Source of the DNA: Pseudomonadota bacterium
GTDB lineage: Bacteria; Pseudomonadota; Gammaproteobacteria; Burkholderiales; Burkholderiaceae_C
NCBI GenBank assembly: GCA_020161065.1
Contig: JAIUPH010000018.1
Location: 372,001 to 436,000, forward strand
Direction: 5' to 3'
Length of the DNA: 64,000 nt
In this document: positions 35,969 through 64,000 of the stretch, piece after piece
Numbering within the stretch: the first letter of the stretch is position 1
Layout of the letters: the number at the start of each line of letters is the position of its first letter
Notes under the pieces: model-generated
The model's input: the letters and a program-made list of their open reading frames with translations, nothing else
Told to the model about the DNA's origin: nothing
Databases searched by the model: none
Translations under genes and position numbers: made by a program

Positions 35969-37048
35969 ATGGCTGTGACAACAGAAAAGGCCCCCGAGCC
36001 TTCGCAAGCCCGCAGTAACCGCGCCAGGCGGTCGACGGTCGACCAGCTTCTCGCGCCTTGGGAGGAGTTCCGGCGCGTCATCCCGCTGGTCTCGCTGAAG
36101 TCGCTGCGCCTTGGCACGAACCCCGCGGTGCCCAAGGTGGCGGTGCTGATGTGCACCATGCAAGGGCAGCATTTTCTGGCCGAGCAGCTCAATTCGATCG
36201 CCACGCAGACGCATCCGCGCTGGGCGATCTGGGCCTCCGACGACGGCTCCGACGACCACACGCACGCCATCCTGGAGTACTACCAGTCGCACTGGGGCGA
36301 AGACCGCATTTCCATCCACGCCGGGCCGGCGGAAGGGTCGACGGCCAACTTCCTGTCGCTGAGCTGCCGCGCCGACATCGACGCCGACTTCTTCGCCTAC
36401 GCCGACCAGGACGACGTGTGGGAAGCCGACAAGCTCGAGCGTGCCGTCAACTGGCTCAAGACGGTGCCCGACGACGTGCCGGCGCTGTACGGTTCGCGCA
36501 CGCTGCTGGTCGACGCGCGCAACCAGCACATCGGCTATTCGCCGCTGTTCGAGCGCGAGCCCGACTTCCGCAACGCGCTGGTGCAAAGCATCGCCGGCGG
36601 CAACACGATGGTCTTCAACCGCGCCGCGCGCGACCTGCTGCGCCGGGCCGGCGAGAACGTCGAAGCCGTCACCCACGACTGGTGGGCCTACATGCTGGTC
36701 ACCGGCTGCGGCGGCCAGGTGCACTACGACCCCTACCCCACGGTGCGCTACCGCCAGCACGGCGCCAACCAGTTCGGCTCCAACGCCGACCCGGTGGCCC
36801 AGTTGCGGCGCGCCAAGCTGCTGTTGCAAGGGCGCTTCCGCGACTGGGTCGACCGCAACCTGCGCGCGCTGGAGCGCGTGCGCCCGCTGATGACGGCCGA
36901 CAACCAGCGCGTGCTGGACGAGTTCATCGGCGCCCGCCGCCGCCACGCGCTGGGCCGCTGGCTCGGCCTGCGCAAGGCCGGCATCTTCCGCCAGACGGCG
37001 CTGGGCAACCTGGGCCTGGCAGTGGCCGCGTTGATCAACCGGCTGTAG
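35969..37048 (+). CDS. Family 2 glycosyltransferase
   Basis: The 359-residue GT-A type enzyme has, after a 55-residue N-terminal extension, VAVLMCTMQGQHFLAEQLNSI, the nucleotide-binding WASDDGSDDHT, the DxD-like FAYADQDDVWEADKLE and GGNTMVFNR. It adds a sugar to a lipid-linked surface glycan. The TDP-rhamnose class is suggested by the ADQDDVW motif, but that is uncertain. It has a TAGAAT -10-like box at 35952. It opens the plus-strand island of glycan genes. Confidence 0.88.
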   Translation: MAVTTEKAPEPSQARSNRARRSTVDQLLAPWEEFRRVIPLVSLKSLRLGTNPAVPKVAVLMCTMQGQHFLAEQLNSIATQTHPRWAIWASDDGSDDHTHAILEYYQSHWGEDRISIHAGPAEGSTANFLSLSCRADIDADFFAYADQDDVWEADKLERAVNWLKTVPDDVPALYGSRTLLVDARNQHIGYSPLFEREPDFRNALVQSIAGGNTMVFNRAARDLLRRAGENVEAVTHDWWAYMLVTGCGGQVHYDPYPTVRYRQHGANQFGSNADPVAQLRRAKLLLQGRFRDWVDRNLRALERVRPLMTADNQRVLDEFIGARRRHALGRWLGLRKAGIFRQTALGNLGLAVAALINRL

Positions 37049-37150
37049 CACACGTCCCGCCACCGCCGCGTCCGCGGCCGCTCGCCGGCAGTGCTGTAGT
37101 ACGCTCGCGCCCCGCGTCCCGCTGATGGGCGCGCGACGCGCTAGCCTCTC

Positions 37151-38083
37151 TTGCCAGATTCCGGGCCGCCTTCCATCCCGCCGCCGGCGTCCATCGCCGC
37201 GGTCCTCGTGCTCCATGGTGGCGGCGCTGAGCTTGGGCTGCCGCTGCAAGGCCTGCGGCAAGCGGTCGATCGGCTGGTGGTGGTCGACAACAACGCCGAG
37301 CCCCTGGCCTGGCCCGCCGACCCCGGCGTGATCCTGCTGCGCAACGCCAACCGCGGCGGCCTGGCCGGCGCCTACAACCTGGCGGTGCAGACGCTGCAGG
37401 CGCAACCCGAAGGCTTGCCGGCGGCCGTCGTCTTCGTCGACCAGGATTCCGATCCCGCCGTGCTGCTGCGCTTCCTGGCCGATGCGCAGGTGCAGTCGCT
37501 GCTCGGCCGCGCCGACGTGGCCGCCGTCTCGCCCGCCTATTGCGACCGCGCCACCGGGCTGCGCGGCCGCTACATCGAGCTGGGCCGCTGGCGGTTGCGC
37601 CACCTGCCGCGGCGCTTTGCCGGTCTGCGGCCGGTGGCCTTCGTGATCAACTCGATGTCGGTCTGGCGGGGCGCGGCCTTGCAGCGCATCGGCCCCTTCA
37701 ACGAGGTGCTGGCGGTCGACCATGTCGACACCGAGTACTGCCTGCGCGCCCGCGCGCTGGGGCTTTCGGTCTGGGTGCACGGCGACCACGAGTTCGCGCA
37801 CTCGATCGGCGAGCGCCGCCGCTACCGGCTGCTGGGCCGCGAGCTGCAGGCCGGCGGCCACGGGCCGCAGCGGCGGCGCCTGATCGGCCGCAACACCATG
37901 TGGCTGGCACGCGGCTGGGCCTGGCGCGAGCCTGCCTTCGCCGCGCTGTGCCTGCTGCGCCTGGCTTACGAGGCGGTGGGCATCACGATTGCCGAGGACC
38001 GCAAGGCGTCGAAGCTGGCCGCGCTGCTGCGCGGCATCGGCCAAGGACTGGCGATGCCGGTGCGGGTCGCCGTCCGTCGATGA
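37151..38083 (+). CDS. Family 2 glycosyltransferase, rhamnosyltransferase-like
   Basis: The 310-residue enzyme has LVVVDNNAEP, NRGGLAGAYNLAV, the DxD-type motif VFVDQDSDPA, and VINSMSVWRGAALQRIGPFNEVLAVDHVDTEYCLRAR (quoted in parts: GPFNEVLAVDHVD, EYCLRARALG). This pattern is seen in bacterial rhamnosyltransferases. The start is probably the TTG at 37151, since no ATG or GTG lies ahead of the domain in frame. Its stop overlaps the ATG of the next gene (ATGA). Confidence 0.85.
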   Translation: MPDSGPPSIPPPASIAAVLVLHGGGAELGLPLQGLRQAVDRLVVVDNNAEPLAWPADPGVILLRNANRGGLAGAYNLAVQTLQAQPEGLPAAVVFVDQDSDPAVLLRFLADAQVQSLLGRADVAAVSPAYCDRATGLRGRYIELGRWRLRHLPRRFAGLRPVAFVINSMSVWRGAALQRIGPFNEVLAVDHVDTEYCLRARALGLSVWVHGDHEFAHSIGERRRYRLLGRELQAGGHGPQRRRLIGRNTMWLARGWAWREPAFAALCLLRLAYEAVGITIAEDRKASKLAALLRGIGQGLAMPVRVAVRR

Positions 38084-39342
38084 CGCCCGCCGTCGCCACG
38101 GCGCCGCCGGCCACCGCCGCGCCGGTCCAAGGGCTGTTGCCCTGGCTGCTGATCGCGGCCGCCTGGACGCCTTACCTGCCGCTGGGCTGCCAGTACTTCG
38201 CCTACTTGTTATGCGGGCTGCTGGCCTTGCGCAGCCTGCACCGCGCCGGCCACTTGCACGCGGTGGCGGCCGATCCGGTGTTCAAGGCGGCCGCGCTGCT
38301 GTGGGGCTGGCTGGCGCTGTCCAGCGCCTGGTCGAGTGCGCCGGCGTCGGCGCTGGCTTCGCACCTGTGGACCTACAGCCTGATGCTGTGGGTGGCGCCG
38401 ATCGCCCTGGCCTGCCACGCCGCCACCGGCCGCCGCGCGCTCGGCCACTTCGTCGTTGCGTCGTGCCTGCTGGCCTTGCTGGTCACGCTCAATGCCGCCG
38501 GCGCGCTGCCGGCCGGCTGGACGTGGCGGCCGTTCGTCGACGTCAGCGGCAACCAGCGCATCGCGTTCTCGCTGCAGCTGGCGCTGGGCGCGGCGCTGGC
38601 GCTGCACCTGGGCATGCAGCAGCGCGACCGCCGCGCCTGGTGGGTGGCCGCCGCGGGGCTGTGCCTGGTCGGCCTGGCGCTGCAGGACCGCCGCACCGGC
38701 ATGCTGGCCGCGCCGGTGCTGCTGGCGGCATTGAGCCTGGCGCATCTGCGCCGCGGCTGGCAGCGCGCGCTGCTGCTCATGCTGATCGCCGTCGCGGCCG
38801 TCGCCGCCTGGCACTGGGTGCCCACGGTGCAGCAGCGGTTCGCCGAAGGCCTGGGCGAGTTGCAGGCCTATCACTCCGATGGCGACGTGACCACGAGCTG
38901 GGGCATGCGTGCGCGCATGTTCGAAGTCACGATGCGCATGGCCGCCGAGCACCCCATCGCCGGCCACGGCGTCGGCAGCTGGGTCAGCCAATGGCGTCCG
39001 CGCGTGGCCGGCAGCGCCGCACTGGAGATCAACACCACGCCGCACAACGAATATCTGCTGCTGCTGGTGCAAGGCGGTTTGGTGGCCTGGGCCGCGGCGC
39101 TGCTGCTGGTGCTGCGCGCGGCGCGCGGCGTGGCGCGCCGCGGCAAGGCCGGCGTGCCGGCGCTGCTGCTGTTGACCGCGTTGTGCTGGGCCGGCCTGTT
39201 CAACGTGGTGCTGCGCGACGCCAAGTTCGCGCTGCCGCTGCTGCTGCTGTCGGCGCTGGCCTGGGGCGCCGGCGGCGCGGACGGCCGGTGCGCCACGCGC
39301 ACAATGGCGCCGCCCCGCCACCCGTCCGATCCCGCTGCGTGA
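38080..39342 (+). CDS. O-antigen ligase/polymerase-type membrane protein (Wzy_C family)
   Basis: The 420-residue polytopic protein has about ten hydrophobic segments and one large loop (about 285-330) with the Wzy_C features GHGVGSWVSQWRP and TPHNEYLLLLVQGG. This family includes WaaL O-antigen ligases, Wzy polymerases and PglL-type protein O-oligosaccharyltransferases, which cannot be separated by eye. It joins or transfers lipid-linked sugars at the periplasmic face. It is coupled to the glycosyltransferase before it (ATGA) and to the large fusion gene after it (GTGA). Confidence 0.87.
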   Translation: MTPAVATAPPATAAPVQGLLPWLLIAAAWTPYLPLGCQYFAYLLCGLLALRSLHRAGHLHAVAADPVFKAAALLWGWLALSSAWSSAPASALASHLWTYSLMLWVAPIALACHAATGRRALGHFVVASCLLALLVTLNAAGALPAGWTWRPFVDVSGNQRIAFSLQLALGAALALHLGMQQRDRRAWWVAAAGLCLVGLALQDRRTGMLAAPVLLAALSLAHLRRGWQRALLLMLIAVAAVAAWHWVPTVQQRFAEGLGELQAYHSDGDVTTSWGMRARMFEVTMRMAAEHPIAGHGVGSWVSQWRPRVAGSAALEINTTPHNEYLLLLVQGGLVAWAAALLLVLRAARGVARRGKAGVPALLLLTALCWAGLFNVVLRDAKFALPLLLLSALAWGAGGADGRCATRTMAPPRHPSDPAA

Positions 39343-42300
39343 ATCCAGAAGACCCAGGCCTCGCCGCCTTGCAAGCCCAGTCCGACGCCTTGAGCCAGGA
39401 TCCGCGCTTTCGCGCCCTGCTGCACACGCATTGGCCGCAGCTCGGCCGCAACGGCGGCGGCCGGCCTTTGAGCACGCGCATCCACCCGGCCGACCAGATG
39501 CTGCTGCATTCGCTGCGCCACCACGGCGACCCGAATGCCGCCTTGAGCCAGTACTTCAACGTCGCGCTGCAGCAGTACCACGCGGCGCGGCAGGTGCTCG
39601 ACGCGTTGCTGCCGCCCGCGCACGGTCGCGTCGAGGTGCTGGACTTCGCCTGCGGCTTCGGGCGGCTGATCCGTTTCCTGTGCTGCTGCGAGCGCGAGCT
39701 GTCGATCAGCGCTTCGGAAATCCAGGACGAGGCGCTGCAGTTCGTGGCCGCCGAGTTCGGCGTGCAGACCCTGCCCTCGGCAATGCAGCCCGAAGCCTTC
39801 CAGCCGGGCCGGCGCTTCGACTTCATCTGGGTCGCCTCGCTGTTCTCGCACCTGCCCGAAGGCCTGTTCCACCGTTGGCTGCAACGCCTGCTGGGCCTGC
39901 TGACGCCCGACGGCGTGCTGTGCTTCAGCGTGCACGACGAGCGGCTGGCGCCGCCGGGCGAGCGGCTGCCGGCCGGCGGCCTGCTGTTCAAGGGCCACAG
40001 CGAGAACGCCGACCTCGACCCCGACGCCTACGGCACCACCTACGTCAGCGAAGCCTTCGTGCGCGCCGCCGTGCAGCGCGCCGCCGGCGGGCCGACCGCG
40101 CTGCACCGCATCCCCAAGGCGCTGGCGCACGAGCAGGATCTCTACGTCGTGCCGGCCAACGCGCGACGTGACCTGGCCGTGCTGGCCGGCTTCCGCCGCG
40201 GCCCCTGGGGCTGGGCCGACGAGCGCCGCATCGACGAGCACGGCCGCCTGGTCGTGCGCGGCTGGGCCGCATCGATCGACGATGGCGCGCTGGCGTCGGT
40301 GCAACTGCGCGTCGACGACGCGACCATCGATTGCCCGACCGGCCAACAGCGCCTGGACGTGCGCGACGCCTTCGACGACGCGCGGCTGTCGCACCCCGGC
40401 TGGTCGTTCATGCGCGAGCTGCCGGCCGGCCAGCGCCAGCCCTGGGTGCAGGTGACGGCGCAGACGGCGCGCGGCGAATGCGCGCTGCTCTATGCCGGCT
40501 GGCCCGGCGGGCGACCAGTAACGGCAGCGGCAGCCACGACGTCGACCGCGCAGCATGTCTACCGCCGCGAAATCGACATGGCCCAGCGCTCGTCGCTGTC
40601 GGTGCTGGCCGCGCTGGTGGCCGCCGGCTCGCGCGTGCTCGACCTCGGCACGGGCAGCGGCTCGCTGGGCCGGCTGCTGCAGCAGCGCGGGTGCCGGGTC
40701 GACGGCGTGACGTTGAGCCCCGCCGAGCGCGAGGCCGCGCAGGACGGCTACGAACGCCTGGAACTGCTGGACCTGGAGCAGCCCGGCTGGGAGCAGCGCT
40801 TCGAGCGCGCGGCCTACGACTACGTGATCTGCGCCGACGTGCTGGAACACCTGCGCGAGCCCGAGCGCGTGCTGCAGGCCTGCCACGGCCTGCTGCGCGC
40901 CGACGGCTGGCTGCTGGCCTCGGTGCCTAACGTCGCTTATGCGGGCATGGTGCTGGAGCTGATGCACGGCGACTGGAAGTACGGCCCCGAGGGCCTGCTC
41001 GACCGCACCCACCTGCGCTTCTACACGCGGCGCTCCTTCGGGCGGCTGCTGGCCGCGCAGGGCTGGCGCGTCGAACGCGTCGAGCCGATCGACCTGACCT
41101 GGTACTACACCGAGTTCTGGACGCCGTTCGACCGCTTGCCGCCGGCCGTCGCGCGTTACCTGCTGGCACAGCCCGACGCCTCGGCGTACCAACTCGTGTT
41201 CGCGGCGCGGCAGGCCGATGCCGCGGCCACGGCGCATCCGCAACAAGCCGCGGTGCCGGCCGCCGACCCCGCCGTGCACGTGGCGGTGTTCGCCAGCACG
41301 CTGGAAGCGGTCGACGCCGAACAGCGGCCCCTGCGCATCGCCCGCCTGGGCCGTGTCGGCGAACCGGCGCAGACGCTGTCGTTCGAGATCCCGGCGCAGG
41401 CGATGCCGGCCGCCGGCCTGCGCTGGCATGCCGCCGACCGACCAGGTTATGTGCACCTGCGGGCCCTCGCGCTGCGCGACCGCGAGGGGCGCACGGTCTG
41501 GCAATGGCAGGCCGGCCAAGGCGCCGACGAGCGCATCCGCACCGCCGACCGCCGGCAGGTCGACTTCGGCCAGCTCGACGCCGAGGGCCGGGCGCTGGTG
41601 CTGCGCCTGACCGGCGACGACCCCAGCCTGCGCCTCCCGGTCGACGCCGATCAAGCGTTAGGCCACGGCCCCTGGCGGCTGGACATCGTCTGCGGCTGGC
41701 CGCTCTCGGCCGACTACCGGGCGGTGCAGGCGGCGCTGCCGCGCGAGGCGGTGGTCGAGGTGATCGTCCCCGTCTACGGCGGCCTGTCGCACCTGCAAGC
41801 CTGCCTGGCCAGCGTGCTGGCCGCCCGCTGCCGCAGCGCCTGGCACCTGACGGTGATCGACGACGCCAGCCCCGGCGCCGCGGTGGGCCGCTGGCTGCGC
41901 GAGTTTGCCGCGCTGCACCCCGAAGTGAGCGTGCTGACCAACGCCCGCAACCTGGGCTTCACCGGCACGGTGAACCTGGGCATGCGCTTGGCCGGGCGCC
42001 GCGACGTGCTGCTGCTCAACAGCGACACCGAGGTGGCCGACGGCTGGATCGACCGCCTGCGCCACGCCGCCGACAGCGGCTCGCGCGTCGGCACCGTCAC
42101 GCCTTTCTCGAACAACGCGACCATCTGCTCGTTCCCGAACTTCTGCGAGGCCAACGCGCTGCCCGCGGGCCAGAGCACGGCCACGCTGGACCGCTTGTTC
42201 GCGAGCCTGAATGCCGAGCGCACGATCGACGTGCCGACCGCGGTGGGCTTTTGCATGTACATCCGCCGCGACTGCCTGGACGAGACCGGCGCTTTCGACG

Positions 42301-42578
42301 CCGAGGCCTTCGGCGCCGGCTACGGCGAAGAGAACGACTTCTGCCTGCGCGCCAGCGCGCGCGGCTGGCGCCACCTGCATGCGCTGGACGTCTTCGTTCA
42401 GCACGCCGGCGGCGTGAGCTTCAGCAGCCGCCAGCAGGCGCTGCAGGCCCAGGCGCTGGCGCAGATGCGGCGGCTGCATCCGCAGTACGAAGCGCTGGTG
42501 CGCGCCTACGTGCTGCGCGACCCGGCGCGGCCTTATCGCGACGCGGTGGCTCAGGCGCTGGCGTCGTCGGCCGCGTAG
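39339..42578 (+). CDS. Fusion protein: two methyltransferase domains plus family 2 glycosyltransferase
   Basis: The 1079-residue protein starts at a GTG overlapping the previous stop. Domain 1 (about 95-260) is a class I SAM methyltransferase with VLDFACGFGRLIRF. A linker (about 285-400) of beta type with LVVRGWAASID and GWSFMRELP follows. Domain 2 (about 405-625) is a second SAM methyltransferase with SRVLDLGTGSGSLGRLL, YVICADVLEHLREPE and DRTHLRFYT. A further beta-rich region (about 645-795) precedes the C-terminal GT2 domain (about 803-1075) with VEVIVPVYGG, VIDDASPG, NLGFTGTVNLGM and LLLNSDTEV. It probably builds and methylates a surface glycan, possibly capping chain ends. Its 3-prime end overlaps the next, opposite gene by 28 bp. 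Confidence 0.9.
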   Translation: MNPEDPGLAALQAQSDALSQDPRFRALLHTHWPQLGRNGGGRPLSTRIHPADQMLLHSLRHHGDPNAALSQYFNVALQQYHAARQVLDALLPPAHGRVEVLDFACGFGRLIRFLCCCERELSISASEIQDEALQFVAAEFGVQTLPSAMQPEAFQPGRRFDFIWVASLFSHLPEGLFHRWLQRLLGLLTPDGVLCFSVHDERLAPPGERLPAGGLLFKGHSENADLDPDAYGTTYVSEAFVRAAVQRAAGGPTALHRIPKALAHEQDLYVVPANARRDLAVLAGFRRGPWGWADERRIDEHGRLVVRGWAASIDDGALASVQLRVDDATIDCPTGQQRLDVRDAFDDARLSHPGWSFMRELPAGQRQPWVQVTAQTARGECALLYAGWPGGRPVTAAAATTSTAQHVYRREIDMAQRSSLSVLAALVAAGSRVLDLGTGSGSLGRLLQQRGCRVDGVTLSPAEREAAQDGYERLELLDLEQPGWEQRFERAAYDYVICADVLEHLREPERVLQACHGLLRADGWLLASVPNVAYAGMVLELMHGDWKYGPEGLLDRTHLRFYTRRSFGRLLAAQGWRVERVEPIDLTWYYTEFWTPFDRLPPAVARYLLAQPDASAYQLVFAARQADAAATAHPQQAAVPAADPAVHVAVFASTLEAVDAEQRPLRIARLGRVGEPAQTLSFEIPAQAMPAAGLRWHAADRPGYVHLRALALRDREGRTVWQWQAGQGADERIRTADRRQVDFGQLDAEGRALVLRLTGDDPSLRLPVDADQALGHGPWRLDIVCGWPLSADYRAVQAALPREAVVEVIVPVYGGLSHLQACLASVLAARCRSAWHLTVIDDASPGAAVGRWLREFAALHPEVSVLTNARNLGFTGTVNLGMRLAGRRDVLLLNSDTEVADGWIDRLRHAADSGSRVGTVTPFSNNATICSFPNFCEANALPAGQSTATLDRLFASLNAERTIDVPTAVGFCMYIRRDCLDETGAFDAEAFGAGYGEENDFCLRASARGWRHLHALDVFVQHAGGVSFSSRQQALQAQALAQMRRLHPQYEALVRAYVLRDPARPYRDAVAQALASSAA

Positions 42579-44023
42579 CGCAGCGCGGTGAGCTTGTCGG
42601 CCTCGGCGATCGCCGGCGCCGGATGGCCCAAGGCGGCGCGGCGGACCAGCCTTGAAGGCCGCGCCGGCGGCGGCTCAGCCGACAGCCGCCGCCCGGCATG
42701 CAGGCGATGCGCTTCGTGCGCGCGACTGGCCGGCGCGTCGATCAGCCAGACCAGTCCGCAGGCGGCGTCGGCCTGGCGGTCGATGGCGGTCTGCAGCAGC
42801 ACCTCCACGTGGTCGGCGTACAGGCGGTGGCGGGCCTCTTCGGCCAGCAGCACCCAGTCGCCACGTGCCACGTCGGTGGCCAGCGCCGCCAGCGGCGTGC
42901 CTGGCGGCACCGTGGCCCATTCGATCGCCAGCGCGGCCTGCCAAGGCTCGCACAGCGCGCGCAGCGCGGGCCGGCTGCCGTCGTCGACCACCACGGTCTG
43001 CAAGGGCCGGTGGGTCTGGTTCGCCAGGCCGCGCAGCCAGTGCCGCACATCGTCGTCGCTGCCCTCGGGCCGCAACAGCACGCTGACCAGCGGCCGCGGC
43101 TGGACTTGCTCGGCTTGCGACTGGAAGGGATGGAAAGAACCTTCGCGCCGCTGTTCGTAGTCCCAACCATTGAAGCAAGGCTCGAAGCCCGGCCCCGCGG
43201 TGCGCGTGCGGCGGAAGTAGGGGTAGTGGCGCGCGAACTTCAGCCCGGCCCGCAGCAGCCCACGGCGGTGGCCGGCAAAAGCCTGCGGGCCGCGGACCTG
43301 TCGCCACAGCTGGCCCAGTCCGTCCAGCACATGGCGGCGACCGGCAAAACGCGTGCGCAGGCACAGGTTGGCGAAGGCGCCGCCCAGCGCGGCCAGCGGC
43401 TTCATTTCGCCGGCTTCGCTGTAGGTGCGGTGCACGACCGCGCAGCGCGGCAGGTAGCGCAGCCGCCAGCCGCGGCAGCGCAAACGCCACGACAGGTCCA
43501 CGTCTTCGCAGTACATAAAGAAGCGCGGCTCGAAGCCCTGCACCTCGCGCAGCGCCTGCGTGCGCAGCAGGACCGCGGCACCGCTGCACCAGCCGGTGTC
43601 GCCGGTCGCCGGATCGTAGTCCTTGGGATGCTCGTACGGGATCTGGCGCAGCTCCCAAGCGGCGACTTGCGCGTCGTCGTCGCGGGCGCTGTCCCACAAG
43701 CGCTGCAGCGCGCCGGGCTCGGGAATGGCGTCCTGGTTGAGCAGCAGCAGATGCGACGCGGCCACGTCCGGCAGCACGGCATTGATCGCGCGGCCGAAGC
43801 CGAGGTTGCCGCGGCCGCCGCCGATGCGAACGGCAACACCGCCAGCGCGCAGCCGGTCCACCACGGCGGCCAGCCCGGGCGTGGTCTGTGGACCTTCGTC
43901 GTTATGCCAGAGGTGAACGGTGACGACCGAGCCCGGCGTGCAGGCCTGCGCGATGGCTTCGAGCCCGGCCTGCAGCTCGGCCAGCCGCGGCCGATAGACG
44001 ACGATCACGACGTCCAGCCGCAT
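42551..44023 (-). CDS. Family 2 glycosyltransferase with a second GT-like half
   Basis: The 490-residue protein has an N-terminal rhamnosyltransferase-like GT2 domain (LDVVIVVYRP, GNLGFGRAINAVLP, LLLNQDAIPEPGAL, RFFMYCEDVDLSWRLR). Its C-terminal half (about 300-420) resembles a second, shortened GT-A start (PLVSVLLRPEG, LANQTHRPLQTVVVDDGSRP, DWVLLAEEARHRLYADHV). The second half lacks a clear DxD, so it may be inactive. An ATG at 44023 precedes the domain; a GTG five codons earlier is also open. It converges on the fusion gene and lies 29 bp after the foldase gene. Confidence 0.85.
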   Translation of the reverse strand: MRLDVVIVVYRPRLAELQAGLEAIAQACTPGSVVTVHLWHNDEGPQTTPGLAAVVDRLRAGGVAVRIGGGRGNLGFGRAINAVLPDVAASHLLLLNQDAIPEPGALQRLWDSARDDDAQVAAWELRQIPYEHPKDYDPATGDTGWCSGAAVLLRTQALREVQGFEPRFFMYCEDVDLSWRLRCRGWRLRYLPRCAVVHRTYSEAGEMKPLAALGGAFANLCLRTRFAGRRHVLDGLGQLWRQVRGPQAFAGHRRGLLRAGLKFARHYPYFRRTRTAGPGFEPCFNGWDYEQRREGSFHPFQSQAEQVQPRPLVSVLLRPEGSDDDVRHWLRGLANQTHRPLQTVVVDDGSRPALRALCEPWQAALAIEWATVPPGTPLAALATDVARGDWVLLAEEARHRLYADHVEVLLQTAIDRQADAACGLVWLIDAPASRAHEAHRLHAGRRLSAEPPPARPSRLVRRAALGHPAPAIAEADKLTALRYAADDASA

Positions 44024-44052
44024 CGGCTCGCGGCGCACGCAGTCGGCCCGGA

Positions 44053-44973: not shown

Positions 44974-45058
44974 GGGTCAAGCGGAAGAAAGTGGACAAGC
45001 CGGACTTTGACGGCTTGGTTCGGCAGGGGTTCGGTGGCAGGCCGAAGAAAACAAAAAG

Positions 45059-45089
45059 GGCCACAGGCGGCACTGCGCCGGCTGCGGCC
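45059..45089 (-). terminator. Second terminator after the exported-protein gene
   Basis: On the minus strand, arms GGCCGCAG and CTGTGGCC (one G-U pair) enclose a 15-base loop and are followed by CTTTTTGTTTTC. It lies 20 bp beyond the first terminator and would catch readthrough. Confidence 0.65.
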
Positions 45090-45108: not shown

Positions 45109-45133
45109 AAAAAGGGGCGGGTTGCCCCGCCCC
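45109..45133 (-). terminator. First terminator after the exported-protein gene
   Basis: A perfect 8-bp stem GGGGCGGG with loop GCAA closes with CCCGCCCC and is followed on the minus strand by a run of five T. It begins 22 bp after the stop codon at 45155. Confidence 0.9.
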
Positions 45134-47607: not shown

Positions 47608-47660
47608 CGATCTCCGGGTGATGGATAAGCACACGAACAGGCACAAGGCAGCCGGGCATG

Positions 47661-50565: not shown

Positions 50566-50575
50566 GAAACCGCCC

Positions 50576-52350: not shown

Positions 52351-52359
52351 GCGCGGCGC

Positions 52360-55165: not shown

Positions 55166-55211
55166 AGCGCTTGAGGCCTGCCGAACGGCGGCCGGGAAAA
55201 AGGGCTGCGGA

Positions 55212-56459: not shown

Positions 56460-58158
56460 CGCCGGCGTCCTGGGTGGCGCGCAGCACTTCCTCGATGGTC
56501 GTCAGCCCGGCGGCCACGCGGCGCAGGCCGTCCTCGTGCAGCGACAGCATGCCGCCCTTGACCGCCAGCGCCTGCAGCGCGCCGGCGTCGGCCCCTTCGG
56601 CGATGGCGCGGCGCAGCGCGTCGTCGACCACCAGCAGCTCGTAGATGCCCAGCCGGCCGCGGTAGCCGCTGCCGCGGCACTGCGCGCAGCCCACCGCGCG
56701 GTAGATCGGCGCGCCGGGGCTTGCATAACGCTGCAAGCCGGTGCGGCGCAGCCACGCGGGGTCGGGCGTCTCCGGTGCCTTGCAGTGCTCGCACAGCATG
56801 CGCACCAGGCGCTGGGCGACCACGCCGTTGACGGTTGACGTGATCAGGAAGCGCTCGACGCCCATGTCGACCATGCGGATCACCGCGCTGGCGGCGTCGT
56901 TGGTGTGCAGCGTGGACAGCACGAGGTGGCCGGTCAGCGCCGCCTGCACGGCGATCTGCGCGGTCTCGCCGTCGCGCATCTCGCCGATCATCACCACGTC
57001 GGGGTCTTGCCGCAGGATGGAGCGCAGCGCGTTGGCAAACGTCAGGCCGATCTGTGCGTGCACCTGGATCTGCACGATGCCCGGCAACTGGTATTCCACC
57101 GGGTCTTCGACGGTGACGATCTTCTGCGTGCCGGCGTCCAGCCGCGCGAGGCCCGCATACAGCGTGGTGGTCTTGCCGGCGCCGGTGGGGCCGGTGACCA
57201 GCAGGATGCCGTGCGGCCGCGCCAGCATCTCGGCAAAGCGCGCCAGCGTGTCGGGCGGCACGCGCATGTCTTCCAGGCTCAGGCGCACGGCGGTGCGGTC
57301 GAGCACGCGCATCACCACGCTCTCGCCGTGCACGCTGGGCACGGTGGAGACGCGCAGGTCCAGCTCGCGCCCCTTCACGCGGGTGCGGATGCGGCCGTCC
57401 TGCGGCAGCCGGCGCTCGGCGATGTCGAGATGCGCCAGCAGCTTGATGCGCGAGGCCACCGCGGCGCCCTGGCGCGGCGGGATCACCTCGGCGGTGTCGA
57501 GCGCGCCGTCGACGCGGTAGCGCAGGTGCAGGCCGTCTTCGAAGGGCTCGAGGTGGATGTCCGACGCGCGCAGCTCGATCACGCGGCCGATCAGCGTGTT
57601 GACCATGCGGATCACCGGCGCCTCGCTCGCCAGGTCGCGCAGGTGCTCGACGAACTCGCCGCTGTCGACGTCGTCGTCGGCCGCGCCGTCGTCGTCGGCC
57701 GCGGCTTCGGCGGCGCGGTCGGCCAGCGCCTTGTCGATCTCGCCCGGCGCCGCCACCGCCACCTGCAGCGGCAAGCCGGTGGCCAGGCGCAAGGCCTTCT
57801 GCACGAAGGCGTCGTCGGGGTCGGGCAGCGCGACGCTCAAGCCGCGCTCGTCCACCGCCAACGGCAGCACGTGGTGGCCGAGCAGGAAGCCGCGCTGCAG
57901 CCCGGGCACGTCAGGCAGTTCGGCCGGGAAGTCGTCGCTGGCCAGCAGGCGCAGGCCGTGCATCTGCGCGCGCGCGGCAGCGATGTCGGCCTCCGACACC
58001 AGGCCGAGTTGCACCAGCACGTCGGGCAGCCGCTTGCCCAGCTCGGCGCTGGCGGCCTGCGCGCGCTCGAGGTCGCGCGGCGCCAGCTTGGCCGCGGCGA
58101 CCAGGCTGTCGCCCAGGCGCTGGTCGGCGGGGTGGAGGATCGCGGCGTCAGTGGACAT
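56452..58158 (-). CDS. gspE: Type II secretion ATPase GspE
   Basis: The 568-residue ATPase has an N-terminal GspE/PilB domain (LGDSLVAAAKLAPRDLERAQ, about 15-150), ASDIHLEPFEDGLHLRYRVDG, Walker A GPTGAGKTTTLYAGL, an Asp box and Walker B (DPDVVMIGEMRDGETAQIAV, shown as VVMIGEMRDGETA), the His box (TLHTNDAASAV) and the tetracysteine zinc motif (CEHCK and CAQCRG). It powers pseudopilus assembly. An acidic insert (about 153-165) is unusual. It overlaps the acyltransferase gene before it by 11 bp. Confidence 0.96.
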   Translation of the reverse strand: MSTDAAILHPADQRLGDSLVAAAKLAPRDLERAQAASAELGKRLPDVLVQLGLVSEADIAAARAQMHGLRLLASDDFPAELPDVPGLQRGFLLGHHVLPLAVDERGLSVALPDPDDAFVQKALRLATGLPLQVAVAAPGEIDKALADRAAEAAADDDGAADDDVDSGEFVEHLRDLASEAPVIRMVNTLIGRVIELRASDIHLEPFEDGLHLRYRVDGALDTAEVIPPRQGAAVASRIKLLAHLDIAERRLPQDGRIRTRVKGRELDLRVSTVPSVHGESVVMRVLDRTAVRLSLEDMRVPPDTLARFAEMLARPHGILLVTGPTGAGKTTTLYAGLARLDAGTQKIVTVEDPVEYQLPGIVQIQVHAQIGLTFANALRSILRQDPDVVMIGEMRDGETAQIAVQAALTGHLVLSTLHTNDAASAVIRMVDMGVERFLITSTVNGVVAQRLVRMLCEHCKAPETPDPAWLRRTGLQRYASPGAPIYRAVGCAQCRGSGYRGRLGIYELLVVDDALRRAIAEGADAGALQALAVKGGMLSLHEDGLRRVAAGLTTIEEVLRATQDAGDA

Positions 58159-59254
58159 GGGCAGGGGCGACGGCAGCCCGCGGCTTGCGGGTCATGAAGG
58201 GCAGTTCGATCAGATGGTAAGAGACGATGGCCACCGCGAAGGTCAGCGGCAGCCCGACCAGCACGCGCGTGGCCAGGCCGAGCTTCAGATGGTCTTCCAT
58301 GATCAGGAAGATCGGGTGGTGCCAGATGTACAGGCCATAGCAGATGCTGCCCAGAAAGACGGTGGGCCGCGCCTCCAGCAGCGGGTGCAGCCAGCCGCGC
58401 CGGCCCAGCACCAGGCCGGCCACGAGCAGCAGCGACAGCAGCATGCACACCTGCGACTGCCACAGGTACCAGGCGCGGTCGTAGTAGCTGGCGGAAAAGC
58501 CCCAAACGAACAGCACCGCGGCCACCGGCGGCGTGGCCCAGCCGAGCGCCGCGCGCAGGCGCGGCGACACGCCGTCGGCATGCGCGCGGCGGTAGAAGGC
58601 CAGCGCGGCGCCCAGGCACAGGCCGCCCAGCCGCACGTCGGTGCCGTTGTACAGCCGCGCGAAGCCGGCGCCCTGCGTGGCCAGCCACCAGCGCCAGGCG
58701 GCCGAGGCGATGGCCCCGCCCACCAGCAGCGCCGCCAGCGGCAGCCAGCGGCGGCCGCGGCGGCCCAGCCGCACCACCAGCAGCGTGAACAGCAGCGGCC
58801 ACAGCGCGTAGAACTGTTCCTCGATCGACAGCGACCAGGCGTGCCCGAGGTAGGGCGACATCGGCCACTCGAAAGCGCGCGCCCAGTTCATGAAATAGAA
58901 CAGCGTGGCGCCGATGGCCCTGAACTCCAGCGTGCGCGGCCGCTGCAGCAGCAGGATGACCACGGTGTAGACCAGCAGCATGGCCAGCAGCGCCGGGAAC
59001 AGCCGGCGCACGCGGCGCTCGTAGAAGCGGCGAAAGTCGACGCGGCCGGCGGCGTCCTGGTCCTTGATGAGCAGCGAGGTGATGAGGTACGAGCTCATCA
59101 GGAAGAAGGTGTCCATGAAGATGATGGCACCCGGGTACCAGTAGTAGTGCAGGTGCGCGGCCAGCACGCCCAGCGTCATCAGCCCGCGCGCGCCGTCGAG
59201 CGAGGCCGAGTAGCCGAGCGGAAACTCGCGCTGGCGCAAGCTCAGTCCGGCCAT
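58148..59254 (-). CDS. Membrane acyltransferase (acyltransferase 3, OafA/YrhL type)
   Basis: The 368-residue protein has about ten membrane segments. It carries the family features SLDGARGLMTLGVLAAHL (catalytic-type histidine), FFLMSSYLITSLL, RRVRRLFPALLAML, YLGHAWSLSIEEQFYALWP and CYGLYIWHHPIF. Such proteins O-acylate surface sugars or lipids. It overlaps the gspE start and the hydroxylase stop, so it is co-translated with both the secretion machine and a glycan/lipid gene. The sugar target is unknown. Confidence 0.9.
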   Translation of the reverse strand: MAGLSLRQREFPLGYSASLDGARGLMTLGVLAAHLHYYWYPGAIIFMDTFFLMSSYLITSLLIKDQDAAGRVDFRRFYERRVRRLFPALLAMLLVYTVVILLLQRPRTLEFRAIGATLFYFMNWARAFEWPMSPYLGHAWSLSIEEQFYALWPLLFTLLVVRLGRRGRRWLPLAALLVGGAIASAAWRWWLATQGAGFARLYNGTDVRLGGLCLGAALAFYRRAHADGVSPRLRAALGWATPPVAAVLFVWGFSASYYDRAWYLWQSQVCMLLSLLLVAGLVLGRRGWLHPLLEARPTVFLGSICYGLYIWHHPIFLIMEDHLKLGLATRVLVGLPLTFAVAIVSYHLIELPFMTRKPRAAVAPAHVH

Positions 59255-60093
59255 CGCTCACCCGCCTGGGCGCGCCTGAACGGCCGCCACTGCGCCGCCC
59301 ACACCGTGGCCGGCGGGGTCCCCGCCGTGCCGACGGCGGGCCATTGCCCGGCGGACGGCGCGGCATAGGTGCCGAACAGCACGTCCCAGAAGCTGAAGTA
59401 GGCCGCGAAGTTCTTGTCGTGGTGCTCGGGCTGCACCGAGTGGTGCACCCGGTGCACGGCGGGGCTGACCAGCACCCGGTTCAGCGGACCGAACGAGATG
59501 CGCGCGTTGGCGTGGATGAAGAACAGCCAGGCCGCGCCGATCCAGCCCAGCACCAGCGGCACGCCGGCCGGCGCCTGCACCAGCAGCGACGCCGGGATCA
59601 GGACCGTGGCCAGCTTCATCAAGTCCTCCAGCCAATGCACGCGCAGCGTCGTCGTGACGTTGAAGCTGGGATCGGAATGGTGCAGCTCGTGGATGCGCCA
59701 CAGCGGCGCGAAGCGATGCTGTGCACGATGCGTCCAGTAGTAGAAGAAGTCGAGCACCGCCACCTGCAGCAGCATCTGCAGCCACGCCGGCACCTGCTGC
59801 ACGGCGGCGCGCCAGGGCGCGAACCAGGCGGCCAGCGGCGTCACCACCGGCTGCGCAAGCTGCCATCCCGCGGCCACCTGCAGCAGGCTGATGGCGATGC
59901 CGATGCCGATGAAGCGCAGGTTGAACCAGACGGCTGCGGCATCGGGCTGGCGAGCGCGGAGCAGCCGTTCGAGCACGAAAACCAGCAACATCCAGGGTGC
60001 ATAGGCTTTGACCTGCTCCCACCAGGGCGATGCCAGCCGATGCGTGAACAGATCGAACAAGGTGTCCACGGGCAGGCGGGTGGGCAACGACAA
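59242..60093 (-). CDS. Sterol desaturase/fatty acid hydroxylase superfamily protein
   Basis: The 283-residue membrane protein has at least three hydrophobic segments and the diiron histidine clusters THRAQHR (HxxxH), HELHHSD (HxxHH) and HRVHHS with HHDKNF, in the family order. Family members hydroxylate or desaturate lipids with oxygen. In this glycan/secretion neighbourhood it may modify an acyl chain or lipid carrier, but the substrate cannot be read from sequence. It overlaps the acyltransferase by 13 bp. Confidence 0.9.
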   Translation of the reverse strand: MSLPTRLPVDTLFDLFTHRLASPWWEQVKAYAPWMLLVFVLERLLRARQPDAAAVWFNLRFIGIGIAISLLQVAAGWQLAQPVVTPLAAWFAPWRAAVQQVPAWLQMLLQVAVLDFFYYWTHRAQHRFAPLWRIHELHHSDPSFNVTTTLRVHWLEDLMKLATVLIPASLLVQAPAGVPLVLGWIGAAWLFFIHANARISFGPLNRVLVSPAVHRVHHSVQPEHHDKNFAAYFSFWDVLFGTYAAPSAGQWPAVGTAGTPPATVWAAQWRPFRRAQAGERWPD

Positions 60094-60144
60094 GGATAGG
60101 GGCGGCCGGCGGCGCCAGCCACCGGGCGGAAGCGGCCTGCGATT

Positions 60145-62040
60145 CTAGGAGGCGGGCGCCGGCGACCTGAACTCGGGCAGCGCGCGCGCCAGCGCTGCGC
60201 GCACCTCGTCATCGCCCGGCAAGGGCTGGGCGCGCGCGGCCAGCGCCAGCAGCTCGGCCATCGAGCCCTGCTGCGGCGCCAGCCGCGCGATGCGCAGCCG
60301 CTCGAAGGGCGTGGCGATGGTGGTTTCGGCGTCGGACAGCAGCTCCTCGTACAGCTTCTCGCCCGGGCGCAGGCCGGAGTAGACGATGGCGATCTCGTCC
60401 GTCGTGTGGCCGGCCATGCGGATGAGGTCGCGCGCCAGGTCGACGATGCGCACCGGCTTGCCCATGTCGAGCACCAGCACCTGGCCGCTTTCGCCGATGG
60501 CCGCGGCCTGCAGCACCAGGCGCGCCGCCTCGGGGATGGTCATGAAATAACGAATGATGTCGGGGTGCGTCACCGTCACCGGGCCGCCGCGCGCGATCTG
60601 CTCCTTGAACTTGGGGATCACGCTGCCGCTGGAACCCAGCACGTTGCCGAAGCGCACGGCCATGAAGCGCGTCTGCGGGTGCAGCGGCACCAGCGTCGAC
60701 AAGGCCAGCTCGGCGGCGCGCTTGCTGGCGCCCATCACGTTGGTCGGGTTGACCGCCTTGTCGGTGCTGATCAGCACGAAGCGCTCGACCGCCACCTCGG
60801 CCGACGCCAGCGCCGCGTTCCAGGTGCCCAGCGTGTTGTTGCGCAGCGCGGCCCAGGCGTTGTGGTCTTCCATCAGCGGCACGTGCTTGTAGGCCGCGGC
60901 GTGGAACACCACCTGCGGCCGCCAGGCGGCGAACGCGGCGCGCAACGCGGCCAGGTCCTTCACGTCGCCGATCAGCCGCACCAGCTCGACCTGCGGGTGG
61001 CTTTGCGACAGCTCCTGCTCGATCGAGTAGAGGTTGAACTCGCTTTGCTCCAGCAGCACCAGCCGCGCCGGGCCGTAACGCAGCACCTGGCGGCACAGCT
61101 CGCTGCCGATGCTGCCGCCGGCGCCGGTGATCAGCACCGCCTTGCCGCGCAGCGTCTCGCCGATGCCGGCTTCGTCCAGCTGCACCGGCGCGCGGCCCAG
61201 CAGGTCGTCGGGCTCGATGTCGCGCAGGCGCTCGATGCGGCTCTTGCCTTCGCGCAGCTCGTCCACCGTCGGCACGGTCAGCACCGGCAGCCCGGTGCTG
61301 CCGGCGAGGTCCAACGCACGCCGCCGCTCGTCGGGCGTGGCCGAAGGCAGCGCGACGACGACGTGCGTCGCCGCGCCGCGCACCGCCTTGTCGCGGATGG
61401 CCTCCAGCGGCCCCAGCACGCGCACCGAGCCGATGCGCGTGCGACGCTTGGCTGGGTCGTCGTCGAGCAGGCCCAGCACGGTCCAGCCCTGTTCGTGGAT
61501 GCCGGCCAGCAGCATGCGGCCGGCGGCGCCGGCGCCCATCACGATGGCCCGCCGCGCATCGGCGCCGCTGCCGCTGATGCGCGAACGCGCATGCTCGTAG
61601 ACCATGCGGTAGACGATGCGCACCAGCGTCAGCCCCATCAGCGTGACGATGGGGTGCAGCGCCAGCACCGCGCGCGGCACCTTGCGCAGTTCCAGCCCCA
61701 TGACGATGGCGGCCGCGGCCAGGCCGGCTGCGGCGCAGGCCAGCGTCAGCCGCTTGACCTCGCCGAAGCCCGAGAAGCGCCACAGGCTTTGCGGCATGCG
61801 CCAGGCGCTCAAGGCCGCCAGGTACAGCGCGACGACGCCCAGCAGCACCCAGCCGTCGTACGACGGCCGCGCGCTGATCCAGCGCTCGAAGCCCAGGCGG
61901 AACAGGTAGGTGGCGTTCCAGCACAGCGCCACCACCGCGGCGTCGATCAGCAGCGACAGCGGCACGCGGTGCGGCCGCGCCTTTGCCAGCAGGCGGTCCA
62001 GCCGCTGCCAGACGCTTCGGTGGTCGCGCGCCGTCGTCAC
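60145..62040 (-). CDS. Membrane-bound nucleotide-sugar 4,6-dehydratase (CapD/WbpM/PglF type)
   Basis: The 631-residue protein has about four N-terminal membrane helices (about 25-155) and an intermediate nucleotide-binding domain (AIVMGAGAAGRMLLAGI). A C-terminal short-chain dehydrogenase domain carries ITGAGGSIGSELCRQ, VFHAAAYKHVPLME (replacing the normal YxxxK by the MxxxK-type set of this group), STDKAVNPTNVMGASKR and RPGEKLYEEL. It makes UDP-4-keto-6-deoxy-GlcNAc, the first step to QuiNAc, FucNAc or bacillosamine. The GTG start overlaps the upstream phosphoglycosyl transferase stop. Confidence 0.92.
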   Translation of the reverse strand: MTTARDHRSVWQRLDRLLAKARPHRVPLSLLIDAAVVALCWNATYLFRLGFERWISARPSYDGWVLLGVVALYLAALSAWRMPQSLWRFSGFGEVKRLTLACAAAGLAAAAIVMGLELRKVPRAVLALHPIVTLMGLTLVRIVYRMVYEHARSRISGSGADARRAIVMGAGAAGRMLLAGIHEQGWTVLGLLDDDPAKRRTRIGSVRVLGPLEAIRDKAVRGAATHVVVALPSATPDERRRALDLAGSTGLPVLTVPTVDELREGKSRIERLRDIEPDDLLGRAPVQLDEAGIGETLRGKAVLITGAGGSIGSELCRQVLRYGPARLVLLEQSEFNLYSIEQELSQSHPQVELVRLIGDVKDLAALRAAFAAWRPQVVFHAAAYKHVPLMEDHNAWAALRNNTLGTWNAALASAEVAVERFVLISTDKAVNPTNVMGASKRAAELALSTLVPLHPQTRFMAVRFGNVLGSSGSVIPKFKEQIARGGPVTVTHPDIIRYFMTIPEAARLVLQAAAIGESGQVLVLDMGKPVRIVDLARDLIRMAGHTTDEIAIVYSGLRPGEKLYEELLSDAETTIATPFERLRIARLAPQQGSMAELLALAARAQPLPGDDEVRAALARALPEFRSPAPAS

Positions 62041-62636
62041 GCGCGTTGCACCAGCAGCTTGAGCGTGCGCGCGATCACCTGCAGGTCGGTCCACAGGCTG
62101 GCGCGCTCGGCATAGTCGGCCGCCGCCTGCAGCTTGCGCGGCAGGATGGTCTCGATGTACTCGCGTTCGGGGTCGGCGGCGGCGGCCAGCAGCGTGCTCT
62201 CGTCCAGGTGGGCCAGCGACGAGGGGTCGGTGATGCCCGGCCGCACGGCCAGCGCACGCTCGCGCAGGCCCGGCGGGTAGTGCGCCACATAACGCGGCAC
62301 TTCGGGACGCGGGCCGACCAGGCTCATGCGGCCCTGCAGCACGTCGATGAGCTGCGGCAGCTCGTCCAGCCGCGTGCGCCGCAGCCAGGCGCCGCTGCGC
62401 GTGATGCGCGGGTCGGCGCCCACCGTCAGCGCCGGGCCGCGCTGCGGCGCGTCGGCCACCATGGTGCGGAACTTGTGGATGCGAAACGGCCGCCCGCCGC
62501 GGCCCACGCGCTGCTGGCGGAAGAACACCGGCCCCGGCGAATCGAGCTTGATGCGCAGCGCGATCAACGCGAACAGCGGCGCCAGCAGCAGCAGGGCCAG
62601 CGCGGCGCCGGCCAGGTCGAACAAGCGCTTGCCCAT
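62037..62636 (-). CDS. Short phosphoglycosyl transferase (PglC/WcaJ C-terminal type)
   Basis: The 199-residue protein has one N-terminal membrane segment (about 4-28). The monotopic phosphoglycosyl transferase signatures KRLFDLAGAALAL, FRIHKFRTMVADA, RTRLDELPQLIDVLQG and SLVGPRPEVPRYV follow. It is the minimal PglC-like form, lacking the extra N-terminal membrane domain of WcaJ or WbaP. It attaches the first sugar phosphate to undecaprenyl phosphate. It is coupled to the dehydratase (overlap) and to the Uma2-type gene (TGATG). Confidence 0.93.
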   Translation of the reverse strand: MGKRLFDLAGAALALLLLAPLFALIALRIKLDSPGPVFFRQQRVGRGGRPFRIHKFRTMVADAPQRGPALTVGADPRITRSGAWLRRTRLDELPQLIDVLQGRMSLVGPRPEVPRYVAHYPPGLRERALAVRPGITDPSSLAHLDESTLLAAAADPEREYIETILPRKLQAAADYAERASLWTDLQVIARTLKLLVQRA

Positions 62637-63202
62637 CAGGACGAGGGCGGCGGGTCCAGCCCGTCGAAGACCTCGGCCAGCGGCACGCTGCAGCCGATGC
62701 TGGGCGCGTCGAGCGTGGGGCCTTCGCTCATGTCGAAGAACAGCCACTGGTCCTGCTCGGTGCGGCGATAGCCTTCGACGCGGCGCGCGTCGGGGTCGAC
62801 GAGGATGAACTCCTTCAACGACGGCAGCCGCCGGTAGGTGGCGAACTTCAGGCCGCGGTCGTAGGCCTGGGTGCTGGGCGACAGCACCTCGATCACCACG
62901 GTGGGGGAGCGGAAGACCATCTCGGTGGACAAGTCGGCCTTGTCGCAGGTGATTAGCAGGTCGGGGTAGAAGATCGCGTCGTCGGCAATCTGCAGCTTCA
63001 TGCCTTCGGTGAACACGCGGCAGGGCGTTCCATCCAACTGCTCGGCCACGCGGCGGTTGAGGTTGGACACGATGCAGCCATGCACCCGCCGCGCCCCCAC
63101 CATCGCGAACACCTCGCCGCGATAGAACTCGTTCCTGTCGGGCTGCTGGTTCTCCCAGTCCAGGTACTCGGTCAAGCTGAGCTGGGTTGCCGGCACGGCC
63201 AT
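62636..63202 (-). CDS. Uma2/DUF820 family nuclease-fold protein
   Basis: The 188-residue protein has the Uma2 pattern: LSLTEYLDWENQQPDRNEFYRGEVFAM (shown as RNEFYRGEVFAMVG), the acidic residue in IFYPDLLITCDK, and VVIEVLSPSTQAYDRGLKFATYRRLPSLKEFILVDP (shown as VVIEVLSPSTQAYDRG), with the PD-(D/E)XK-like core intact. The biological role of these proteins is unclear. The start at 63202 follows a perfect GGAGGTGA site. It is odd inside a glycan operon: it sits between the aminotransferase and the phosphoglycosyl transferase and is coupled to the latter. Confidence 0.9.
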   Translation of the reverse strand: MAVPATQLSLTEYLDWENQQPDRNEFYRGEVFAMVGARRVHGCIVSNLNRRVAEQLDGTPCRVFTEGMKLQIADDAIFYPDLLITCDKADLSTEMVFRSPTVVIEVLSPSTQAYDRGLKFATYRRLPSLKEFILVDPDARRVEGYRRTEQDQWLFFDMSEGPTLDAPSIGCSVPLAEVFDGLDPPPSS

Positions 63203-63234
63203 CGCAATCACCTCCGTGGCGCCGATTGTGCCGC

Positions 63235-64000
63235 TCAGGCCTGCAGCGCCCGCCGCACCGCGGCGATCACGCGCTCGACGTCGGCGTCGCTCATGCGCGT
63301 GTAGATCGGCAGGCTGACCAGCCGTTCGTAGGCCCGCTGGCTGTGCGGGAACTGTGCCGGCTGCAGGCCGTAGCGGTCGCGCCAGTAGGGGTGCAGGTGC
63401 AGCGGGATGTAGTGCACGCTGCAGCCGATGCCTTGCTCGAACATCGATTCGATGAAGCGGTCGCGCGCAATGCCGGCGCCATCGCCCAGGCGCAGCGGGT
63501 ACAGGTGCCAGGCGTGCAGGTCGCTGGGCGCCGGCAGCGGCGGCGTGACGAGCGGCAGCCCGGCAAAGGCCTCGTCGTAGCGCGCCGCGATCTGCGCGCG
63601 CCGCTGCTGGAAGCCGCGTGCGCGCTTGAGCTGATGGATGCCCAAGGCCGCGGCGATGTCGGTCAGGTTGTACTTGAAGCCCGGCGCGACGATCTCGTAG
63701 TACCAGCTCGGCACCTTGGCGGTGAAGCGGTCGAAGGCGTCGCGGCTCATGCCGTGCAAGCGCATCACGCGCGCGCGATTCGCCAGCGCCGCGTCGCGCG
63801 TGACCAGCATGCCGCCCTCGCCGGTGGTCATGGTCTTGTTGGCGTAGAAGCTGAAGACCGTGGCGTCGCTGTCCAGCGTGCCGACCAGGCGGCCGCCCGT
63901 GGTGGTGGGCAGCGCGTGGGCGGCGTCTTCCACCACCTTCAGCCCGTGGCGGCGGGCGATGGCCAGCAGCGCCGGCAGGTCGGCCGCCAGCCCGCCGTAG
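63235..64000 (-). CDS. DegT/DnrJ/EryC1 sugar aminotransferase, N-terminus outside the window
   Basis: The visible 254 or so C-terminal residues show [12 protein letters not shown], the PLP-binding lysine in [40 protein letters not shown] and [10 protein letters not shown], all DegT-family motifs. Family members aminate UDP-4-keto sugars; the C4 aminotransferase PglE is the natural partner of the dehydratase and phosphoglycosyl transferase encoded downstream. The 5-prime end continues past 64000. It is followed by the Uma2-type gene after 32 bp. Confidence 0.92.

Follow-up and report, generated by a model that had tools for sequence, protein, structure and literature searches.

The DNA considered here, referred to as the window, is a stretch of 64,000 nucleotides (bases 372001-436000 of contig C4, whose end corresponds to window position 73036) from a 6.29 Mb, 98.7% complete genome of a Pseudomonadota bacterium (GCA_020161065.1). 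Its right-hand part, which a preliminary description had put forward as a possible protein-glycosylation and secretion locus for a surface protein, holds a gene for a surface-layer (S-layer) protein assigned to the NpdA family and the genes of a type II secretion system (T2SS), bordered on both sides by polysaccharide genes. Gene kinds were assigned by Pfam and NCBIfam scans of the locus proteins. GspD, M, F, E and a PilN-domain GspL are recognised by Pfam; GspG-K were named via gene order and between-loci homology.

44053..44973, minus strand: PpiC-type peptidyl-prolyl isomerase (rotamase, foldase), from Pfam and gene order
45114..45133, minus strand: intrinsic-terminator-like hairpin, 8 G-C pairs then T5, directly 3′ of the S-layer gene
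45155..46957, minus strand: NpdA-family S-layer protein, from homology, gene order, composition and an AlphaFold2 (AF2) model
47164..47664, minus strand: small lipoprotein-like gene between gspD and the S-layer gene, present in many relatives
47661..49883, minus strand: GspD secretin (Pfam Secretin, 168.7 bits; start read from the sequence)
49894..50565, minus strand: GspC-like/Orf2-like T2SS gene, from position and homology to relatives, no Pfam match
50576..56459, minus strand: gspM, L, K, J, I, H, G and F (T2SSM_b, PilN and T2SSF by Pfam; G-K by order and homology)
56452..58158, minus strand: GspE ATPase (Pfam T2SSE, 460.9 bits)

From its best start, an ATG at 46957, the S-layer protein has 600 amino acids (aa), four cysteines and a mass of ~59 kDa once the first 25 residues are removed; its N-terminus is, on our own reading, signal-peptide-like. 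It is single-copy in its genome and has no match in Pfam or NCBIfam. The AF2 model is fair (predicted local distance difference test, pLDDT, 79.9; predicted template modelling score, pTM, 0.87; 38 sequences) and gave no convincing relative among PDB structures. The product of the small gene at 47164..47664, which we take to be a lipoprotein, has no Pfam match. Terminator-like sites such as the one behind the S-layer gene number five in the region, not clearly more than in shuffled sequences (mean 3.9, sd 1.9).

The S-layer protein shares 38-40% identity with homologs from Paracidovorax citrulli and Delftia acidovorans whose genes have an identical arrangement (gsp, S-layer, PpiC), with 40% identity across query residues 4-603 to the homolog from P. 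citrulli DSM 17060 (L129). The computed mass of L129 minus 25 residues, 52,399 Da, is within 5 Da of that published for NpdA of another strain, P. citrulli AAC00-1 (25-residue signal, 52,394 Da; PMC10765051). By sequence homology and by its adjacent, ordered gsp cluster, both of which are found here, the exported protein is a member of the NpdA S-layer ('nanopod') family, and it probably forms a crystalline layer over the cell surface. Past residue 25, 61 of 62 relatives have exactly four cysteines, as does this protein. The preliminary description had singled the protein out as Thr/Ser-rich; Ser+Thr after residue 25 amounts to 18.3%, no higher than in the 62 relatives (quartiles 17.5, 18.7 and 20.3%), so this composition is ordinary for the family.

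The comparisons drew on 150 family genomes, 81 genus genomes and 80 named loci, the last being 80 retained out of 130 confirmed loci from a degenerate-pattern scan of named genomes, with P. citrulli and D. acidovorans among them; the named loci and family genomes overlap (L105 is G159, L107 is G200) and are not independent samples. Neighbourhood labels are best phmmer matches to window and Comamonas proteins (> 100 bits for Wzm, > 150 bits for Wzt) and are not curated, rfb names being taken from the Comamonas record; absences among them are weak evidence, because genes rich in AT escape the gene caller (15 kb of G153 appeared empty until open reading frames were listed). The S-layer protein and gspD occur together in 63 of the 80 named loci; outside the 63 are seven loci without a called S-layer gene and three more S-layer loci with some gsp genes and no gspD. 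Since the S-layer homolog adjoins gspD in so many loci, the gene cluster reflects more than chance. PpiC is present in 61 of the 63, mostly as the next gene. The S-layer-family protein is probably exported by the adjoining T2SS, with the foldase. The export half of the earlier idea is well supported, with an S-layer-family protein beside T2SS and foldase genes in an order conserved in relatives, and is already known in kind.

S-layer homologs were found in 19 of the 150 family genomes and in 3 of the 81 genus genomes, the window's own genome counted in each; one broken partial match in the genus, in G212 (33% identity, four stops), was excluded, and one in G009 (28%, 142 residues) was retained among the 19. 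Several tandem or scattered S-layer homologs lie without a nearby gsp or Wzm label (G018:C1:3193778-3200346, L095; G035 loci L094, L120, L121 and L123).

The sugar genes on either side of the module, and those continuing beyond the right edge of the window, are the following (GT2 and GT4 denote glycosyltransferase families).

36128..37048, plus strand: GT2 glycosyltransferase (Pfam); alternative ATG at 35969
37151..38083, plus strand: GT2-like protein on our own reading, no Pfam match; homologs in G159 and G200
38080..39342, plus strand: Wzy_C-family membrane protein (60.3 bits against a cut-off of 31.7)
39369..42578, plus strand: large methyltransferase plus GT2 protein (Pfam), with domain kinds as in a Comamonas 1236-aa protein
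42551..44038, minus strand: GT2 glycosyltransferase after PpiC (Pfam)
58148..59254, minus strand: acyltransferase family 3 membrane protein (Pfam, 93.6 bits)
59242..60087, minus strand: fatty acid hydroxylase-like protein (Pfam, 101.2 bits)
60145..62040, minus strand: UDP-HexNAc 4,6-dehydratase of PglF/WbpM type (Polysacc_synt_2, 376.6 bits), under every NCBIfam equivalog cut-off
62037..62636, minus strand: small phosphoglycosyl transferase of PglC type (Bac_transf, 196.9 bits), one of the genome's two Bac_transf matches
62636..63202, minus strand: Uma2-family gene within the sugar operon (Pfam), at the same place in G159 and G153
63235..64000, on to 64425, minus strand: DegT aminotransferase, closest to ArnB/PseC models and below their cut-offs
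64422-65108, minus strand: methyltransferase (gene call)
65101-66333 and 66330-67427, minus strand: two GT4-like genes (gene call)
67427-68011, minus strand: hexapeptide acyltransferase (gene call)
68011-69300, minus strand: Wzx-like protein (Polysacc_synt_3, 22.1 bits, cut-off 23)
69335-70486, minus strand: second DegT protein, WbpE type (domain content)
70468-71061, minus strand: WbpD-type hexapeptide protein (domain content)
71064-72122, minus strand: WbpB-type oxidoreductase (domain content)

Every gene called between 42.5 kb and 72.1 kb is on the minus strand, and a plus-strand lysS-like gene ends the sugar block after the WbpB-type gene. The names WbpB, WbpE and WbpD are our own reading of domain content, with no equivalog cut-off reached; the gene names rhlE, lysS, rsmI and maf and the XrtA label are likewise our own reading of the proteins.

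Elsewhere in the genome, contig C5 carries Wzm/Wzt with glycosyltransferases (G000:C5:118894-131402, L214 and L215, with Wzm/Wzt-like and several glycosyltransferase-like genes), and contig C14 carries an exopolysaccharide-like (EPS-like) locus with a second Wzy_C and a Bac_transf gene. At L105:14492-16774, and likewise in L106, an unlabelled protein of 760-790 aa stands beside the large methyltransferase-glycosyltransferase, and none was called there in the window. Far to the left, an Rfam 5_ureB_sRNA match (113.5 bits, 1438-1736, minus strand) lies antisense to the gene called at 1274-3004, which we take to be a urease gene; the match possibly reflects coding conservation and not an RNA.

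Polysaccharide genes accompany the conserved core in most relatives. Both Wzm and Wzt are found in 53 of the 63 loci (Wzt in 57), the large methyltransferase-glycosyltransferase in 48 and Wzy_C in 3. The ten loci without both exporter genes comprise L105-L107, which are of the Wzy_C type; L108, L109, L111 and L150, with a strong Wzt and a sub-threshold Wzm; L172, with Wzm only, at a contig end; L182, where the contig stops right after the S-layer gene; and L110, with neither. Among S-layer homologs without any gsp gene, Wzm/Wzt were seen in 0 of 7, two of the seven being on very short contigs. Among the 13 non-Rubrivivax loci whose gspE flank was covered, 12 have rfb genes in the vicinity, the exception being G135; G086, where a gspE-like gene stands alone and rfb is absent, is not counted. 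A reverse-strand protein of 520-610 aa that looks glycoside hydrolase-like recurs between rfbC and gspE (e.g. G147, G018, G010).

A search with the Comamonas Wzm in the 150 family genomes returned orthologs (53-73% identity) in 15 genomes, every one of which has the S-layer protein, the other 45 matching genomes reaching at most 36%. This Wzm subtype is present in 15 of 19 S-layer genomes versus 0 of 131 others (Fisher p = 2.4e-17, which is no count of independent events because the genomes are related). The window locus has no Wzm/Wzt exporter in the cluster, the only Wzm (34%) being elsewhere, on contig C5; Wzx and Wzy_C genes stand where most relatives have rfb and Wzm-Wzt. The other S-layer genomes without the ortholog are G009, with its weak S-layer match, G063, where a 30% Wzm adjoins, and G012, whose contig stops beside the S-layer gene and which has no Wzm match elsewhere in the genome.

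Directly observed are the kinds of gene present, the family to which the protein belongs, and a conserved core that lies together with polysaccharide genes. We consider it probable that they represent an NpdA-type S-layer module, secreted by the T2SS and lodged in an O-antigen-type locus between rhlE and lysS, whose product anchors the layer through lipopolysaccharide (LPS). Secretion by the adjoining T2SS, the sugar chemistry, the fate of the glycan on LPS and the anchoring are inferred. The module would comprise the T2SS genes, the small lipoprotein-like gene, the S-layer protein and PpiC. The S-layer protein would pass the inner membrane via its signal peptide, fold with the aid of PpiC, leave through the adjoining T2SS and crystallise at the cell surface. 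The sugar genes on either side would make an O-polysaccharide initiated by the PglC-type transferase, with a PglF/DegT amino sugar and a WbpB/E/D-like diamino-uronic acid as putative precursors. Its chain may be assembled by the GT2 and GT4 transferases and flipped by Wzx, with Wzy_C as ligase or polymerase, and LPS bearing this O-polysaccharide would hold the S-layer to the cell.

Several observations weigh against this explanation. Co-location is no proof of anchoring, and the locus is not proven as the source of the LPS O-antigen because of the two further polysaccharide loci on C5 and C14. The predicted structure of the Wzy_C protein is weak (pLDDT 62.9, 3 sequences); its best match is WaaL, yet Foldseek alone gave no WaaL among the 50 matches listed. 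The Wzx-like protein falls just under its Pfam cut-off, the Wzm ortholog is absent from 4 of the 19 S-layer genomes, the window's own included, and the core locus L110 shows no polysaccharide label although it holds PpiC and extends past it.

The preliminary description read the sugar genes differently, as a means of glycosylating the exported protein. On such a model, a lipid-linked oligosaccharide made by these genes would be attached to the S-layer protein ahead of its export, either by the Wzy_C protein or by a PglL protein encoded elsewhere. The gene kinds listed in the preliminary description (DegT, PglF, PglC, Wzy_C, glycosyltransferases, acyltransferase, foldase, T2SS) were all recovered in the Pfam and NCBIfam scans, the DegT gene with the correction that it extends past the window to 64425; the fatty-acid-hydroxylase-like and Uma2 genes were missing from that account, and the sugar genes to the right lay beyond its view. 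In favour of glycosylation, the sugar block shares the strand of the secretion genes and overlaps into gspE (by 11 bp, between the acyltransferase gene end and the gspE start), the genome encodes a PglL-type protein (584 aa, contig C8, PglL_A plus Wzy_C_2, the only PglL_A match), and S-layer glycoproteins are known in Gram-positive bacteria (PMC2943079). The local Wzy_C protein lacks both PglL_A and Wzy_C_2 by Pfam, which speaks against the PglL-type role proposed for it. A bacillosamine-like initiation holds for PglF, the aminotransferase and PglC at domain level only, with no equivalog cut-off reached, and fails for PglD: on the right flank to the contig end, hexapeptide proteins scored 92.3 and 27.0 bits against the 160.8 of TIGR03570 (NeuD/PglB/VioB), and none was found in the locus, the left part of the window being merely gene-called and the rest of the genome not searched for PglD. 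Ser+Thr is not raised over relatives, and the equivalent genes in Aeromonas make O-antigen, sugar-gene mutants losing it and a vapA mutant retaining it (PMC4413209, PMC4483657). It is also important to point out that the sugar genes occur in the genus without the S-layer protein. Strong Wzx orthologs (E <= 1e-70) are found in 18 of the 81 genus genomes, 15 of them without an S-layer match (11 at least 90% complete, four under 90%), and strong Wzy_C homologs (E <= 1e-60) in nine, six of them without the S-layer protein, and each of the three S-layer genomes in the genus carries both genes; by these counts neither Wzx nor Wzy_C, which lie at opposite ends of the sugar cluster, is confined to S-layer genomes. 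Overall, the glycosylation half of the earlier idea is not supported, the sugar genes more likely building a surface polysaccharide under the S-layer than protein-attached sugars, and of the alternatives weighed here we regard glycosylation as the least probable.

The rhlE flank towards lysS, compared in ten genomes of the genus that lack the S-layer protein, also bears on whether the neighbourhood has any functional meaning, since an S-layer/T2SS module may have landed by chance or transfer in a polysaccharide hot spot. The eight readable flanks differ in gene content and carry polysaccharide labels, of which G223 has few; the other two flanks, in G224 and G155, begin at a contig end. Only those of G153 and G180 are covered as far as lysS. 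The complete genome G153 holds PglF-PglC-Uma2-DegT-methyltransferase-GT4-GT4-LbH-Wzx-WbpE-WbpD-WbpB beside lysS, 59-86% identical to the block at this locus, with rfbBDAC and one unlabelled gene at the place of the window's T2SS; it is the only genome in which the whole sugar block was observed without the S-layer. G180 has PglF, PglC, DegT and methyltransferase genes at that place and different genes beside lysS. Within the rhlE-lysS interval of G153 (L198:8000-20000), an AT-richer segment (52-56% GC) with sugar and acyl-activation-like genes looks horizontally acquired. The variability of this flank favours a chance neighbourhood, as does the insertion point in Aeromonas hydrophila AH-1, a truncated Wzm gene (PMC4413209), but one Wzm subtype is exclusive to S-layer genomes across many genera (15/19 versus 0/131) and assembly of NpdA is reported to need LPS (PMC3110197, citing Engelhardt et al.), and we judge this alternative quite unlikely, if slightly less so than glycosylation. 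The polysaccharide may instead be a capsule or EPS, to which the S-layer may or may not be tied. In favour of this, G153 has a Wza-like export gene (SLBB/Poly_export) within its rhlE-lysS interval. Against it stand the weak WaaL-like model of the Wzy_C protein and the lack of any Wza-like export family among the locus proteins run through Pfam, a set that leaves out, right of the window, the methyltransferase, the two GT4-like genes and one of the hexapeptide proteins. A capsule or EPS seems unlikely, though less so than either of the other two readings; as it partly overlaps them, the probabilities need not sum to one. Anchoring through an LPS O-antigen is the explanation we prefer.

Trees of the two core genes, with midpoint roots only, bear on how the window arrangement arose. 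The gspD tree (59 rows) places the window and L105-L107 in one clade (Shimodaira-Hasegawa-like approximate likelihood ratio test, SH-aLRT, 99), beside L108/L109 (98) and among ABC-type loci, whereas in the S-layer tree (63 rows) L107 joins L108/L109 (97/83), so that two changes are needed. For the secretion genes, the export route was likely replaced just once; for the S-layer protein this is less clear. Tentatively, the module of the Rubrivivax lineage may have kept its T2SS and S-layer protein and swapped an ABC-exported, rhamnose-type O-antigen for a Wzx/Wzy_C-type amino-sugar glycan, with lattice and O-antigen co-evolving.

Rubrivivax ('species') is already among the tabulated holders of npdA (PMC10765051), and the words O-antigen, LPS, lipopolysaccharide, polysaccharide and rhamnose are absent from the main text of that paper. 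The available parts of PMC12175726 make no mention of NpdA, and those of PMC12827227 mention it just for predation resistance. No report linking NpdA to O-antigen was found in the available literature on NpdA, Rubrivivax S-layers and S-layer/T2SS/O-antigen clusters, although one may exist elsewhere. The molecular detail of S-layer/glycan matching in Gram-negative bacteria is known for Caulobacter, the only such case found in the available literature. NpdA S-layers pair with one subtype of O-antigen exporter, which is replaced in a single lineage, and this would offer a directly testable comparison of such matching; annotators may also be cautioned against taking sugar genes of this kind for an S-layer glycosylation system as a matter of course.

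The Bordetella wlb and Pseudomonas wbp LPS clusters bring together WbpB/E/D-like, PglF/WbpM-like and PglC-like gene kinds, as this locus appears to do. A close counterpart is the NpdA/nanopod locus of Delftia, Paracidovorax and other genera, with a homologous S-layer protein and gsp directly upstream; it mostly has rfb and Wzm-Wzt flanks where the present locus has Wzx/Wzy_C-type sugar genes, and the reported neighbourhood has 12 gsp genes (PMC10765051) against 11 in the window. The vapA A-layer of Aeromonas (O11 or wb-salmo cluster) shares with the window an S-layer/T2SS module flanked by polysaccharide genes, there those of an O-antigen cluster, as described for A. hydrophila AH-1 and A. salmonicida (PMC4413209, PMC4483657), with the order sps E-F-G-H-I-J-K-L-M-Orf2-D then the S-layer gene in AH-1; VapA is likened by layout only, and its cluster, unlike the window, follows an ABC-2 transporter pathway. 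O-antigen has been suggested as the anchor of Aeromonas S-layers (PMC3835674), and RsaA of Caulobacter is bound to the LPS O-antigen (PMC6978808). RsaA resembles the proposed arrangement as a Gram-negative S-layer held by O-antigen, and uses type I secretion (PMC10765051, PMC3835674) in place of the T2SS of the window. A T2SS-exported S-layer inside an O-antigen cluster is thus a known kind of locus, of which the window, with its different polysaccharide pathway, would be a variant.

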